A stretch of DNA of 64,000 bases. Origin: Prochlorococcus sp. AG-409-J16. Lineage in GTDB: Bacteria > Cyanobacteriota > Cyanobacteriia > PCC-6307 > Cyanobiaceae. A model generated the notes under the pieces. The model was not told the DNA's origin. It was given only the letters and a program-made list of their open reading frames with translations, and ran no database searches. Of this stretch, positions 1 to 5,104 are shown in pieces. Within the stretch, counting starts at the first letter, position 1; every line of letters begins with the position of its first letter. The position numbers and the translations under genes are program-made. The stretch lies in NCBI GenBank assembly GCA_003215655.1, contig QCKB01000002.1, positions 124,001 to 188,000 on the forward strand. Direction: 5' to 3'.

Positions 1-293
1 ATGATTTTAATCCTCTCCATAATCATTCTGGCTCTTTAAGTTTTGTTATTTATTTAAATGTACCAGAGGAATTAAATGCAGAAGCTTCACACTGGAAAGG
101 AACAGGACCAGATCCAGGAAGTATTATGTTTCAATATGGAGAAGAACTCCCATTAATCTCTAATAAAAGAATCTTTAAGCCTAAGAAAGGAGATATTTTC
201 ATCTTCCCATCATCGTTACATCATATGGTAATTCCTTTTAGAACACCTAATATTGAACGAGTATCTGTAAGTGGCAATATTACTTTAGAATAG
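1..293 (+). CDS. 2OG-Fe(II) oxygenase family protein, 3' part only
   Basis: An open frame enters from the left window edge (first complete codon at 3) and stops at 291-293, giving 96 visible residues. It contains NPLHNHSGSLSFVIYL, then a glycine-rich stretch ending IFIFPSSLHHMVIPF, then IERVSVSGNI close to the end. This order (HxH-like metal site, FP..L.H.V, R.SvS.N) matches the C-terminal half of the putative 2OG-Fe(II) oxygenase family (2OG-FeII_Oxy_5 / TIGR02466) common in phages and marine cyanobacteria. The second His and the Arg would be the distal Fe ligand and the 2-oxoglutarate contact. Substrate unknown. The start lies outside the window. It sits 118 bp upstream of the sugar amidotransferase cassette on the same strand. 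Confidence 0.7.
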   Translation, partial: DFNPLHNHSGSLSFVIYLNVPEELNAEASHWKGTGPDPGSIMFQYGEELPLISNKRIFKPKKGDIFIFPSSLHHMVIPFRTPNIERVSVSGNITLE

Positions 294-377
294 ATAATCA
301 AATTTTAACCTTTTAGTTAGATTAATGCAGCTAATTCCATAAGACTCTTTCGTAGAATCCCATAAATAACGTCTCAC

Positions 378-386
378 TGGTATAAT
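378..386 (+). promoter_or_regulatory. Extended -10 promoter element upstream of hisH2
   Basis: TGGTATAAT is a perfect extended -10 (TGnTATAAT). It lies 24 bp before the ATG of the hisH-like gene and no good -35 hexamer is visible, as is usual for extended -10 promoters. It would drive the three-gene amidotransferase cassette. Transcription start is inferred to be near 393. Confidence 0.5.
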
Positions 387-410
387 GATTAAAGAGATTC
401 AGCTAATTAT

Positions 411-1046
411 ATGTTTTCTATTGGAATTTTAGACGTTGGAATAGGAAATATACCTGCAATAGAAGGCTCTTATAGAAGATTAAATATTCAAACCACAAGA
501 ATATCAACCTATAATCAATTGAAATTAGTTAATCATCTGATAATACCTGGTGTAGGTAACATGTCTGAATATATGTCACGGCTCAGAGGTTTGAGCCTAG
601 ATAATGAAATTAAATCCTTTTCACAATATGGCTACATTTTAGGTATATGCTTGGGCTTCCAAGCCCTTTTCGAGTTTTCAGAGGAAGGCGATACTGAATG
701 CCTTGGAATACTAAATGGCCATGTTAAAAGAATTTTTGATATATCTCATATTTCTACTAACATAGGATTCTTAACCATCTCTCCAAAAAAAATATTAGAG
801 GAGAATAGTATCAAGAACCAGCTTTCATTACGCTCTAATAATAATACTGAGTATTACTTCACTCATTCTTTCTATGTAGAAGACACGAGATTTACCACCC
901 ATTTAATTAATAATTCACAACTATCTAATGTATCTGCGGCATGTAGCAATTTTTCAAATATTTTTGGTACTCAATTTCACCCAGAACTTAGCCATTCCGA
1001 TGGTTTGCACATACTTTCTTCCTTTTCATTATTGGGAAATCAGTGA
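411..1046 (+). CDS. hisH2: HisH-like glutamine amidotransferase subunit (sugar amidination cassette)
   Basis: Class I glutamine amidotransferase of 211 residues, close to normal HisH length. It hydrolyses glutamine and passes ammonia to a partner synthase. The nucleophile is Cys80 in GICLGFQ, and His190/Glu192 in GTQFHPE complete the triad, so glutaminase activity looks intact. The N-terminus (MFSIGILDVGIGNIPAIEGS) matches the HisH pattern. It is followed with a 4-bp overlap by a HisF-like gene and then a WbpG/PseA-type amidotransferase, so it probably serves sugar modification rather than histidine synthesis. Composition is AT-rich like its neighbours. ATG start at 411 fits the promoter at 378-386. 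Confidence 0.85.
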   Translation: MFSIGILDVGIGNIPAIEGSYRRLNIQTTRISTYNQLKLVNHLIIPGVGNMSEYMSRLRGLSLDNEIKSFSQYGYILGICLGFQALFEFSEEGDTECLGILNGHVKRIFDISHISTNIGFLTISPKKILEENSIKNQLSLRSNNNTEYYFTHSFYVEDTRFTTHLINNSQLSNVSAACSNFSNIFGTQFHPELSHSDGLHILSSFSLLGNQ

Positions 1047-1828
1047 TTAATCTCCAGAAGTCTTATTTTAGCCATGCTCGTCCACGTCTAATAGCAACTT
1101 TGCTATTACGTAATTCTCTAGCATTTGTTTCTAATCAATTCAACTCTTATGAATATGTAGGTGATCCGATAGTTATATTAAATATTCTCTCTGGCTTCAT
1201 GGTTGATGAAGTTATTGTAATTGATCTGGATGCATCCTCTTCTGGTGCTCTGAATAAACGTCTTTTGCAATCACTAAGATCTATAGCAGATTATCCCCTT
1301 TCATATGCTGGAGGTTTACGTGATCAAAATAATATAGACTCTATATTTCAGCTGGGTTATGATAAAATTTTCCTTTCATTATTTAACCCCAGTTTAAATA
1401 ATCTTGCATCTTATGCTTCAGCTAAATCTGGAATTCAATCAATAGCCTTATCAATTGATTATACATTAACAATTAATAGCGAGCGTTTTCTTTTTAATCC
1501 TTATGACAGATTGACTAAAGGATATCTGAATGACTTTCCAAGTATTGCTCGACTTGATTATTTTTCCGATATTCTTCTTACCAATACAACACTCACTGGC
1601 ACTAAGACGAGTATCGACCATCATGTCTTATCTGATAGAACAATTAAGGCAATCGACAATCCGATAATTCTTTCAGGTGGTCTTAAAAATGAAGGCATGG
1701 CAACTATTCACTCTTGTGCATTAATAAATTCTAATTTTTCTGGTATAGCAGCTGGTTCTAGCATCTTTCTACAAACAGGTCCTGGCTCTGCTTTGGTTTC
1801 ACTGCTATGTCACTCGAATAATAATTAG
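1043..1828 (+). CDS. hisF2: HisF-like protein, probable ammonia-channel partner without cyclase residues
   Basis: TIM-barrel HisF homologue of 261 residues; GTG start overlaps the hisH2 stop, implying translational coupling. Family signs are YVGDPIVILNILSGFMVDEVIVIDLDA, YAGGLRD near residues 88-94, ALSIDYT with Asp139 (equivalent to HisF Asp130) and LSGGL near residue 210. The N-terminal motif that holds the catalytic Asp11 in true HisF (CLDV..G) reads IATLLLRN here, with Leu replacing Asp, as in HisF2 proteins of O-antigen loci. Cyclisation of the histidine intermediate is therefore unlikely. It probably docks HisH2 and channels ammonia to the next enzyme. The lysine usually found just after this motif also seems lost. 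Confidence 0.8.
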   Translation: MINLQKSYFSHARPRLIATLLLRNSLAFVSNQFNSYEYVGDPIVILNILSGFMVDEVIVIDLDASSSGALNKRLLQSLRSIADYPLSYAGGLRDQNNIDSIFQLGYDKIFLSLFNPSLNNLASYASAKSGIQSIALSIDYTLTINSERFLFNPYDRLTKGYLNDFPSIARLDYFSDILLTNTTLTGTKTSIDHHVLSDRTIKAIDNPIILSGGLKNEGMATIHSCALINSNFSGIAAGSSIFLQTGPGSALVSLLCHSNNN

Positions 1829-1832
1829 AGCT

Positions 1833-3017
1833 ATGGAATCCACTGCAACAATTTGCCCTAGATGTGTTATGGATTGTTCAGATCCAAATATTACTTTCTT
1901 TGCGGATGGTACTTGTAATAATTGTAGGCATGCACAAACAATTCTAGACACACATACTGAGAAGCATTCAATTGAGTTTGTTGTTGCATCAATAAGAAAA
2001 TTAGCTTTAGATTCTAGTCCTTCATCAGATTATGATTGCATTGTAGGTATTAGTGGAGGTGTAGATAGTTCTTGGTTGTTACATGTATTAGTTAATGCAG
2101 GACTAAGAGTTTATGTTCATCATGTAGACACAGGATGGAATACTCATAAGGCTGTTGGTAATATCTACAAACTTTGCAGCAAATTAAGTTTACCTATTCA
2201 TACTCATGTTGTTGATTGGAATTTAATGAAAAAAATACAAACTGCTTTTTTCTACTTAGGTATTTTAAATCAGGATATACCTCAGGATATGGCTATATTT
2301 TCTTCCCAAATAAAGGCTTGTACAGACAATAAAATTTCTATATTAGCGAGTGGTGCTAATAACACTACTGAATCTATTCTGCCTACGGCATGGAGTCACC
2401 ATTGGCATGATGTTTTTAACTTGCAATCAATTTATACTCATTTTTGGGGAACTTCACTATCTAATTTTCCATATACATCCTTTGAAGACCTGGCATCATA
2501 TCGTTTATGGCATACCAAAAAGTTAACCACAATAAATATTTTTGATCATATTGAATATAATAAAACTATTGCTCTTTCGAAATTAGAGGATATTTATGAT
2601 TATGTAAATTATGGCCAAAAGCATGGTGAATCAGCTTGGACTGCTTACTACCAAACAATTTATTTGCCAAGCTTATACTCAATAGATAAACGTAAAGCAC
2701 ATTTAAGTAATTTAATCATTAATAATGAGATTACTAGGAAAGAGGCAATAGAACAGTTGAATAAACCATCACTTTGCTATTCAGATAAATTGGAATTAGC
2801 CAATTTTATAGCTTTAAAACTCTCTATCCCTTTAGAACATGCTTTAAACCCTGGTAAATATATTTTACCAGTTCAGCATAATGTATTTGGTCCATCTAAA
2901 GAGCTTATTGACTATTTCACCTCTTTATACAGTCAAGCAGAGGTATCTAAGAGAAACCAAATATTTAATGATTTCATGTCCAAATATTCTATGCTTTACA
3001 GTAATAAGTTTACTTAA
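1833..3017 (+). CDS. N-acetyl sugar amidotransferase (WbpG/PseA-like)
   Basis: PP-loop ATPase of 394 residues. The N-terminus has a cysteine cluster (Cys8, Cys11, Cys15, Cys28, Cys31) that resembles a zinc site, and ATP-binding SGGVDS at 74-79. This layout is that of the N-acetyl sugar amidotransferase family (WbpG, PseA, LegG-related), which uses ATP and ammonia to convert an acetamido group on a nucleotide or free sugar into an acetamidino group. Ammonia would come from the HisH2-HisF2 pair just upstream (4 bp gap). The exact sugar (mannuronic acid type or nonulosonic acid) cannot be read from sequence. A perfect hairpin terminator overlaps its last codons. Confidence 0.85.
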   Translation: MESTATICPRCVMDCSDPNITFFADGTCNNCRHAQTILDTHTEKHSIEFVVASIRKLALDSSPSSDYDCIVGISGGVDSSWLLHVLVNAGLRVYVHHVDTGWNTHKAVGNIYKLCSKLSLPIHTHVVDWNLMKKIQTAFFYLGILNQDIPQDMAIFSSQIKACTDNKISILASGANNTTESILPTAWSHHWHDVFNLQSIYTHFWGTSLSNFPYTSFEDLASYRLWHTKKLTTINIFDHIEYNKTIALSKLEDIYDYVNYGQKHGESAWTAYYQTIYLPSLYSIDKRKAHLSNLIINNEITRKEAIEQLNKPSLCYSDKLELANFIALKLSIPLEHALNPGKYILPVQHNVFGPSKELIDYFTSLYSQAEVSKRNQIFNDFMSKYSMLYSNKFT

Positions 3018-3037
3018 ACTTATTAAGTTCTTTTTTT
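3002..3037 (+). terminator. Intrinsic terminator after the amidotransferase cassette
   Basis: A 10-bp perfect inverted repeat (TAATAAGTTT at 3002-3011, loop ACTT, AAACTTATTA at 3016-3025) is followed within 5 nt by a seven-T run at 3031-3037. It overlaps the last codons of the plus-strand gene and of the convergent minus-strand membrane protein gene. Confidence 0.75.
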
Positions 3038-3219
3038 CTTTCATTATTAAATATTCTTTTTTCCGCAAAAATTAATATTGCCCACGATAATGTCAATACA
3101 ATAGCTAAAAAATAATCTTGCCTTAAGAGATCTATTGCAGCATATGTACTGGCTAGTATTATCAGTGTTCTTAGAAGCCACCTTTTTGGTGAAATACTTT
3201 TCAGTCTATTGCTTTTCAT
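3010..3219 (-). CDS. Small two-helix membrane protein, unknown function
   Basis: 69 residues. A basic N-terminus (MKSNRLKSISPKRW) is followed by two hydrophobic segments, about 14-30 and 35-52, then a charged lysine-rich tail (EKRIFNNERKKELNKFK). I do not recognise the family. Its ATG overlaps the stop of the upstream 63-residue gene, so the pair is likely translated together. Its 3' end overlaps the convergent amidotransferase gene by 8 bp. Confidence 0.6.
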   Translation of the reverse strand: MKSNRLKSISPKRWLLRTLIILASTYAAIDLLRQDYFLAIVLTLSWAILIFAEKRIFNNERKKELNKFK

Positions 3220-3407
3220 TTAAATCCTTTCTGCTTGTTATCTGGTATGATATTTTTTGAAGGTTTATTTTTATTCAGTTCTCGAATTACTGCTATACTT
3301 ATAGAAGTTAATAATATGAAAAGAAATATTATCATTGACCATATCACTGTGGATGTAGTAGATGAAAATTGACCAGGATTTACTATTTTTAAAAACTCTA
3401 TATTCAT
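3216..3407 (-). CDS. Small single-helix membrane protein, unknown function
   Basis: 63 residues with one strongly hydrophobic helix at about 20-41 (STVIWSMIIFLFILLTSISI), then a polar, lysine-rich cytoplasmic-looking tail. No family recognised. It overlaps the next membrane protein gene by 4 bp and starts 3 bp after the stop of the SRAP-like gene, so all three appear to form one minus-strand operon. Confidence 0.55.
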   Translation of the reverse strand: MNIEFLKIVNPGQFSSTTSTVIWSMIIFLFILLTSISIAVIRELNKNKPSKNIIPDNKQKGFK

Positions 3408-3410
3408 TAT

Positions 3411-4043
3411 TTAAATCAGACTCAATTGATTATAATTGCTATTAAATTTAGGCTCGCTAATCCAATCATCATAATTATTATTTAAAAGCATGCTACTTAT
3501 TGTATCAAGCTCATTACCATAGCAATCTTTCATCCATAGTTCTTCGTATCCATTCTCAATAATTGCAGGCATCCTTGAATGTAATTTTTTGATTAGATTA
3601 TTAGCTTCCCTTGTAATCAAAGCACATGTATCAACTTCACTTCCATCTAGTCCTATCCATCTCTCCCATATTCCTGCAATCCAGAATGTCTCTAAATCTT
3701 TTCGCCTGATCAAGTGGTTTTTTTCAAAAAAGCCACTTGCAGGTATTAAGCAACGTCGATATTGCCATGCACCACGAAATGATTTTTTTTGACCAACTGT
3801 TTCTAATCTGGCATTATAAGATTTTTGATCTACCTTAGGAGTCTTTCTCCAGGAAGGAAGGAATCCCCATAGCATATAAGAGCTTGAGAAGCTTTTATTT
3901 TCTTTTTTCAATACTAATAGTGGATCATCTTTTGTTATCCAATTAAGTGGTTTATAGTTAAAAGAGAAATTTCTTGGAGTTCTTTTTTTTAAGATAGAAG
4001 GTAGATCTTCAAACTCTGTTCTAAGCTCGAATCCGCCGCACAT
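3411..4043 (-). CDS. SRAP/YedK-family abasic-site processing protein
   Basis: 210 residues of the SOS response-associated peptidase family (HMCES/YedK), which crosslinks to abasic sites in single-stranded DNA through Cys2 after removal of Met1. Visible motifs are the N-terminal MCGGFE with Cys2, YNARLETV (Asn and Arg of the active site), LIPASGFFE (catalytic Glu) and LHSRMPAII (active-site His). Position 4 is Gly where most members have Arg (MCGR). Length is normal. It lies on the minus strand at the edge of the AT-rich region, first in a run with two small membrane proteins. Confidence 0.85.
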   Translation of the reverse strand: MCGGFELRTEFEDLPSILKKRTPRNFSFNYKPLNWITKDDPLLVLKKENKSFSSSYMLWGFLPSWRKTPKVDQKSYNARLETVGQKKSFRGAWQYRRCLIPASGFFEKNHLIRRKDLETFWIAGIWERWIGLDGSEVDTCALITREANNLIKKLHSRMPAIIENGYEELWMKDCYGNELDTISSMLLNNNYDDWISEPKFNSNYNQLSLI

Positions 4044-4179
4044 TTTATATTCTGAATTTCTATCATATTATTACTGATCCTACGCATTGTCACTCCCATA
4101 TAGATTTAAATTAACGTCCATACTAAATATCTGAGATTGCAGAAATATCATATATATTCATCAGTAATAGCAATATAAA

Positions 4180-4311
4180 TTAATTGGATTGATATCCAGC
4201 AAGAAGCTTTGCAAGCGAGTCTGGGTTACCATGTACCCACTCTCTTGCTATTAGAATTACAATAAGATTAACAGCTATAAGAGCAATTAAACGAATTCTT
4301 TGGTCTTCCAC
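4180..4311 (-). CDS. Unannotated 43-residue membrane peptide
   Basis: A short frame from GTG at 4311 to TAA at 4180. The product starts MEDQRIRLIALIAVNLIVIL and continues IAREWVHGNPDSLAKLLAGYQSN. It has a charged start, one 17-residue hydrophobic helix and a polar C-terminus, which reads like a real small membrane protein and not random sequence. An in-frame stop lies two codons before the GTG, so no longer form exists. No strong Shine-Dalgarno sequence is visible. It fills most of an otherwise empty gap between two divergent genes. Confidence 0.5.
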   Translation of the reverse strand: MEDQRIRLIALIAVNLIVILIAREWVHGNPDSLAKLLAGYQSN

Positions 4312-4410
4312 GCTTTATAAAGCATTTAATTAATATTACTATAATTAAACTAATTGTCTCTGCTCACTTATTCTTTCGATGCATTTTCTTCGGCACTTAA
4401 AGTTCTCTTT

Positions 4411-4569
4411 ATGAGTCAGCATGAACCTACAAGAAAAGCTCGATATTGGTTGGGTCCACTTTTAGTCGGAGCATGTTTAGCTACAGGTTATGGAATCACA
4501 AAGCGAATCGATTCTTTTCAAGGCTTCTTTCATCAACGCCAAATTACCCCATTTGATATTATTAAGTGA
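4411..4569 (+). CDS. Small membrane-anchored protein, unknown function
   Basis: 52 residues from the ATG at 4411 (MSQHEPTRKARYWLGPLLVG, then ACLATGYGITKRIDSFQGFF). A basic N-terminus precedes one hydrophobic segment at about 13-28, followed by a polar tail. An in-frame TTG at 4354 would add 19 residues, but the ATG form looks more natural. Function unknown. The 199 bp after it up to 4769 show no further gene. Confidence 0.6.
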   Translation: MSQHEPTRKARYWLGPLLVGACLATGYGITKRIDSFQGFFHQRQITPFDIIK

Positions 4570-4768
4570 CCTTCTTATTCTTCATTAATTTATTCTATAT
4601 TCTACTTTTTAGATCTCCGCTGATAATTATTTCTCCTTCCCTCATCTTATTGTTAATATCGCCCTCTCAAATGAGCACTTCGATTTAAATTAATTTACTG
4701 CTCCCTTCACTAGGTACATATCAATACTTCTTCTTTATTATCATTTACTATTGACACCCTTCTATTGA

Positions 4769-5104
4769 ATGAGTTCCCCAGAGGCATTATTCAAAGCAAC
4801 GCTATCTCGATTGTTTGTACGATTTGGTAGTGGTCTTTCTTCCTGCTCTGAAGTGATGAAGGCTTTTGCCAAAGAAACTCCAGAACGTATACGCCAAGAA
4901 TGGGACTCATTCCAGGATGAGGTGTTTTCTGAGGCTGACCGTATAGATAAGGAAAGCGAGGAGTATTCCTATTCAACAGCCAAAGCTGAAGGAAATTCAA
5001 TGTATCCAAATAAAACCTCTTCAATCTCTGATTTAGAGACGCAGATTGACCGATTGAGGTCAAAGGTTTCCGAGTTAAGCCTAAAGGTTGAGGGACGACC
5101 TTAA
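4769..5104 (+). CDS. Conserved-looking hypothetical protein with C-terminal coiled coil
   Basis: 111 residues, acidic and hydrophilic. The first 35 residues could form an amphipathic helix (SSPEALFKATLSRLFVRFGS). The end has heptad-like spacing (ISDLETQIDRLRSKVSELSL), suggesting a short coiled coil at about 87-107. No enzyme motif seen. The stop overlaps the ATG of the UbiB-family gene by 1 bp (TAATG), so the two are almost certainly coupled. The function may relate to that kinase, but this is inferred only from position. Confidence 0.65.
   Translation: MSSPEALFKATLSRLFVRFGSGLSSCSEVMKAFAKETPERIRQEWDSFQDEVFSEADRIDKESEEYSYSTAKAEGNSMYPNKTSSISDLETQIDRLRSKVSELSLKVEGRP

Follow-up and report, generated by a model that had tools for sequence, protein, structure and literature searches.

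Three genes near the start of the window (the whole stretch of 64,000 nucleotides analysed, C2:124001-188000 of a 1.84-Mb draft genome, G000, rated 99.96% complete) raise the question of why a marine picocyanobacterium should keep HisH- and HisF-like proteins beside a PP-loop enzyme, and which molecule the three might modify. They encode a HisH-type glutaminase of 211 aa (411..1046), a strongly diverged HisF2/WbuZ-type (β/α)8 barrel of 261 aa (1043..1828) and a WbuX/WbpG-type N-acetyl-sugar amidotransferase (NASAT) of 394 aa (1833..3017). As originally predicted, all three reading frames are present on the + strand, the first two overlapping by 4 bp and the last two separated by 4 bp, and the trio is translationally coupled. 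We consider it probable that the products form a dedicated complex of the WbpG/HisH2/HisF2 (WbuX/WbuY/WbuZ) kind, which converts an N-acetyl to an acetamidino group on a surface-glycan sugar. In such a complex, HisH would hydrolyze glutamine to ammonia, and the HisF2 barrel, the presumed ammonia channel, would pass it on with no histidine intermediate being made. NASAT, with its PP-loop and ATP, would activate the N-acetyl carbonyl of an amino sugar for the addition of ammonia, so that the surface glycan would carry acetamidino in place of N-acetyl. The proposal draws on three family memberships, the catalytic motifs, the conserved linkage of the genes, the separate hisH and hisF genes of the genome and the location in a variable island; from these we infer the ammonia transfer, the amidine chemistry and the surface destination.

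The original prediction had also given the trio its own promoter and terminator. The extended -10-like sequence TGGTATAAT is indeed present on the + strand (378..386), 24 bp upstream of the HisH start, and is a possible promoter; this is its one exact match in the window, against a chance expectation of 2.6, and the -35/-10 scan listed no promoter at 378-386, which leaves the assignment plausible only. At the other end, a weak A+T-rich stem leading into a T run (3012..3038, +; -2 kcal/mol, z -1.5) overlaps a convergent small ORF and is a doubtful terminator, and the terminator scan found none at the end of the trio. With both scans negative, the -10 match at chance level and the stem weak, a promoter and terminator of the trio's own are not established.

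The enzyme assignment, on the other hand, is firm, and the prediction of a glutaminase, a barrel and a PP-loop sugar amidotransferase was right. HisH belongs to the class-I GATases (PF00117) and matched TIGR01855 at 4e-36 (124.7 bits, above the cut-off of 105.4), retaining the catalytic Cys in GICLG and the His and Glu in QFHPE. NASAT matched TIGR03573 (WbuX) at 3e-50 over nearly the entire profile (2-334 of 344), with a score of 171 bits that lies below the curated cut-off of 203; it was likewise under the cut-off in the whole-genome profile search. We read this score as divergence, because both family motifs and the fold match. A PP-loop and a zinc tetracysteine define the NASAT family (PMC10607449), and the window protein contains the SGGxDS motif as SGGVDS (S74-G-G-V-D-S79) and the CxxC-Xn-[GN]xCxxC motif as C8, C11, G26, C28 and C31. 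Its predicted model (pLDDT 88) gave 8WEX, the Legionella pneumophila LpNASAT, as the top Foldseek match (E 3e-11, TM 0.58-0.61), and this was the only N-acetyl-sugar amidotransferase among its PDB matches. A PDB search with the single sequence gave no match; a profile search gave 8WEX. The two proteins share the Rossmann-like PP-loop fold and the zinc tetracysteine, but are only 14% identical in the structural alignment, and LpNASAT has a disordered insert near the metal site that is said to be absent in other members. In the NASAT tree, the window protein was placed next to Helicobacter, which may be due to long-branch attraction, and the tree was therefore used for family membership only. 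The original prediction had named a non-sugar PP-loop family and non-glycan neighbors as the outcomes that would speak against it; instead, the PP-loop protein groups with the N-acetyl-sugar amidotransferases by profiles, homologues and tree, and a DegT sugar aminotransferase lies in the left flank.

A single-protein search of the genome and viral collections returned no match, and a profile of ten relatives returned hundreds. NASAT was found in about 20 of 399 same-order genomes, over most of its length and at 28-39% identity; identity to many bacterial NASATs was 33-42%. The three genes were adjacent at 19 of the 20 same-order loci fetched, in the order HisH-HisF-WbuX (n = 14) or WbuX-HisH-HisF (n = 5), while the 20th locus was a short contig ending within the NASAT gene. 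This adjacency argues that the trio is a real module. It was also present at 64 of the 79 NASAT loci drawn from named genomes, which span many phyla. For several other bacterial NASATs (L069, L075, L086, L119, L123, L129 and L131), profile searches of the fetched flanks detected neither HisH nor HisF, and the trio is thus common, not obligatory. The clusters of two relatives, examined in detail, contain nucleotide-sugar dehydrogenases, ManC, DegT, Gfo/Idh, a PglD-like acetyltransferase and a glycosyltransferase. Two cyanobacterial NASATs (L044:9438-10604 and L046:10154-11305) lack some cysteines of the zinc tetracysteine (CSRTVMD..CDHA and CKKTVMD..SNHY) and retain the PP-loop and the linkage to the trio.

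Among characterized systems, WbpG of P. aeruginosa O5 serves ManNAc3NAmA and WbuX of E. coli O145 serves L-FucNAm (PMC10607449). Like the window protein, both are NASAT family members with the PP-loop and tetracysteine; the window differs in a NASAT about 30-40% identical to family members, a far more diverged HisF, and a host genome without the epimerase family needed for both of their substrates. Their HisH and HisF2-type partner genes are adjacent, as in the window. A cell-associated polysaccharide cluster of a freshwater Sphingomonas, in which transposon hits change colony morphology, includes WbuX, AglZ/HisF2 and HisH, a trio from the same families as that of the window (PMC11340318). That cluster also contains a nucleotide-sugar dehydrogenase, an acetyltransferase and an MviM dehydrogenase, whereas the window trio has only an aminotransferase nearby.

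The gene content of the genome bears on which sugar might be modified. The two leads that came with the original prediction, nonulosonic acids and the Pseudomonas ManNAc3NAc route, found no support: G000 has no NeuB (PF03102), which 11 of the 20 genomes searched do have, no Epimerase_2 (PF02350, WbpI/FnlC type), which was present in 11 of 14 control genomes, and no WbpD orthologue. A full WbpA-B-E-D-I route was considered and rejected, since contig C1 has a Gfo/Idh and DegT pair, but WbpI and WbpD orthologues are missing. The best match to PF02719 (Polysacc_synt_2) in G000 scored 56 bits, whereas a phage homologue from a sugar cassette scored 288, a difference that argues against a UDP-GlcNAc 4,6-dehydratase. 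Without NeuB and Epimerase_2, the genome is unlikely to provide nonulosonic acids, ManNAc3NAcA or L-FucNAc as precursors. We considered the possibility that the trio nevertheless amidinates one of these classical substrates (Pse/Leg, modified by PseA, or ManNAc3NAcA/L-FucNAc, modified by WbpG and WbuX), with the corresponding enzymes undetected or missing from the assembly. The characterized family members act in this way (PMC10607449), and the 11 genomes with NeuB were all relatives with NASAT; however, the missing NeuB, Epimerase_2 and WbpD in a genome of this completeness, together with the weak Polysacc_synt_2 matches, make this explanation rather unlikely. Because the genome lacks the pathways for the best-studied sugars, the target is probably to be sought outside them. 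The genome does contain rmlB (428 bits, above cut-off), and the DegT gene of the island (L004:14677-15795), about 8 kb from the trio and on the opposite strand, has DesI as its best NCBIfam match, below the cut-off. With RmlB and a DesI-like aminotransferase, dTDP-4-amino-4,6-dideoxyhexose would be possible, and our guess is that the sugar comes neither from the nonulosonic acids nor from a WecB-type epimerase and is perhaps this one; no N-acetyltransferase for such a dTDP-sugar was identified. The occurrence of the module in a marine picocyanobacterium without both classical precursor routes suggests a substrate range beyond the few known sugars.

The window trio is also unusual in its own sequence. 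In a leave-one-out comparison at near-invariant positions, the window HisF was changed at 16 of 44 positions, while the 81 other members had a mean of 1.2 and a maximum of 9. HisH was changed at 6 of 37 positions and NASAT at 6 of 61, neither being the extreme in its set. The terminal branch of NASAT (1.83) was the longest in the tree (next 1.11, median 0.31), and the nearest-neighbor identity of each trio protein was lower than for any other member of its set. By these comparisons, the trio appears to be the most isolated copy of the set examined, above all in HisF, with its catalytic motifs kept. The isolation is partly a matter of sampling, since similarity to the window protein guided the choice of the comparison set, which came from well-sampled groups; the HisF count suffers less from this, as the positions used are conserved across all others. 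No other member has a HisF as altered as this one, so its role as a channel is less sure. It is possible, and we propose it only tentatively, that the trio represents a lineage of its own, acting on a substrate beyond the known set (e.g., dTDP-4-acetamido-4,6-dideoxyhexose), in which the HisF changes reflect an altered ammonia-transfer or partner arrangement.

The same divergence could mean that the trio is decaying, with HisF function lost and the cassette becoming a pseudogene, as the number of HisF changes, the long NASAT branch and the A+T-rich surroundings would allow. We find this improbable: the three reading frames are intact and coupled, the catalytic motifs of HisH and NASAT are kept, with changes in both proteins within the range of other members, and the barrel is modeled with confidence. 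The trio is a divergent example of an already known enzyme complex, in a typical variable-island setting.

NASAT-like genes were also found in viruses. All 80 viral contigs kept (L146-L225, IMG/VR) had such a gene, with both motifs in 79. No HisF could be recognized in the fetched DNA of these contigs, many of which are short. A HisH-like frame directly follows the viral NASAT in nine contigs at E < 0.1, seven of these at < 0.001; Pfam confirmed the class-I GATase in L150 and added L147. Thus, a small class-I GATase lies directly downstream of NASAT in about 10 viral contigs, in cassettes with DegT, Polysacc_synt_2 and Gfo/Idh. Examples of NASAT without HisF in the fetched DNA are L147:10001-11483, L150:9998-11597 and L207:10004-11068, and terminase genes identify L147 and L207 as phage. 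No matching PHROGs family was found, and there was no match among cultured-phage records. GATase and NASAT paired without HisF may represent a phage variant. The viral NASATs suggest that some members work without a HisF barrel, a point that may be relevant to the altered HisF of the window.

The trio sits, as predicted, at the edge of an AT-rich island, the GC content being 30-36% at window positions 1-5000 and 37-47% beyond. The AT-rich stretch continues for about 10 kb beyond the left end of the window and spans approximately C2:115000 to C2:129000. It corresponds to a 14.5-kb insert (C2:114225-128769, or L004:10225 to window position 4769) between argJ on one side and a small ORF, then an ABC1 kinase gene, on the other, with the trio at its right end. 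In four relatives the site is empty, with only about 0.6-0.75 kb from argJ to the small ORF. In another (G121, L227:8668-19650), the same two genes enclose 11 kb of unrelated genes, including an LA_1612-type O-antigen protein, an acyl-CoA synthetase-like gene and a hexapeptide acetyltransferase; for the other 12 relatives, the 20 kb read did not contain argJ. The site, empty or differently occupied in relatives, is thus a swap point. At least two genomes carry glycan-related cargo there, and it provides a clear example of such cargo being exchanged at one chromosomal position. No tRNA genes, Rfam families or notable repeats were found to mark the insertion point, and no integrase was recognized among the island proteins scanned.

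Besides the DegT sugar aminotransferase, the island encodes two methyltransferases, a DAO-family oxidase, a 2OG-Fe(II) oxygenase-like protein (start at L004:19652, 3' end at window 1..293, +; PF13759, 3e-12), a SRAP-family protein of 210 aa near the right end (3411..4043, -; PF02586, 1e-40) and several proteins without matches. The methyltransferases, the oxidase and the oxygenase, and the failure to recognize a glycosyltransferase in the island, might point to a small molecule or secondary metabolite, instead of a surface sugar, as the target of amidation. This is quite improbable, given the NASAT family match, the sugar aminotransferase in the island, the glycan clusters around the trios of relatives and the O-antigen-type gene at the same site in G121. 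A role of the trio in surface-glycan modification remains the likely one: the DegT gene, the glycan genes of relatives and the swapped or empty site provide supporting context, while the sub-cut-off scores of HisF2 and NASAT and the lack of a recognized glycosyltransferase count against it. Amidino sugars are charged, uncommon decorations and may alter how phages and grazers see the cell; a possible part in phage or grazer recognition, as originally predicted, would be compatible with the hypervariable location of the trio.

The barrel scored 104 bits against NF038364 (9e-30) and 95 bits against TIGR03572 (4e-27), far below the curated cut-offs of 310 and 299.7 bits, and was therefore filed as HisF2-like, not as an equivalog. 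Its match to the true HisF profile was weaker still (2e-11, 44 bits). Its model (pLDDT 87) found HisF and HisA structures as the best PDB matches. The Asp of the first strand is catalytic in HisF; in the alignment, it is replaced by Leu in the barrel, is also absent in other HisF2 proteins, and is present in the genome's own HisF. The canonical hisF is on contig C10 and hisH on C9 (202 bits), apart from the trio, which argues that the trio does not serve histidine biosynthesis. That it might be a further copy of imidazole glycerol phosphate synthase, working in histidine or purine synthesis, is hardly credible despite the above-cut-off HisH score, in view of these separate genes, the far closer match of the barrel to HisF2/WbuZ, the missing Asp and the conserved linkage with NASAT. 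The resemblance to that enzyme lies in the glutaminase and barrel folds and the presumed ammonia transfer; it ends with the missing Asp, the third partner NASAT and the separate hisH and hisF. A WbuZ-like match on C10 (268 bits, TIGR03572), considered as a second cassette, was the ordinary hisF, and another on C1 is probably hisA. Elsewhere in the genome, L065 (C4:20001-40000) is the probable main LPS locus, with a CDP-glucose 4,6-dehydratase, RfbH and an apparent ABC exporter pair.
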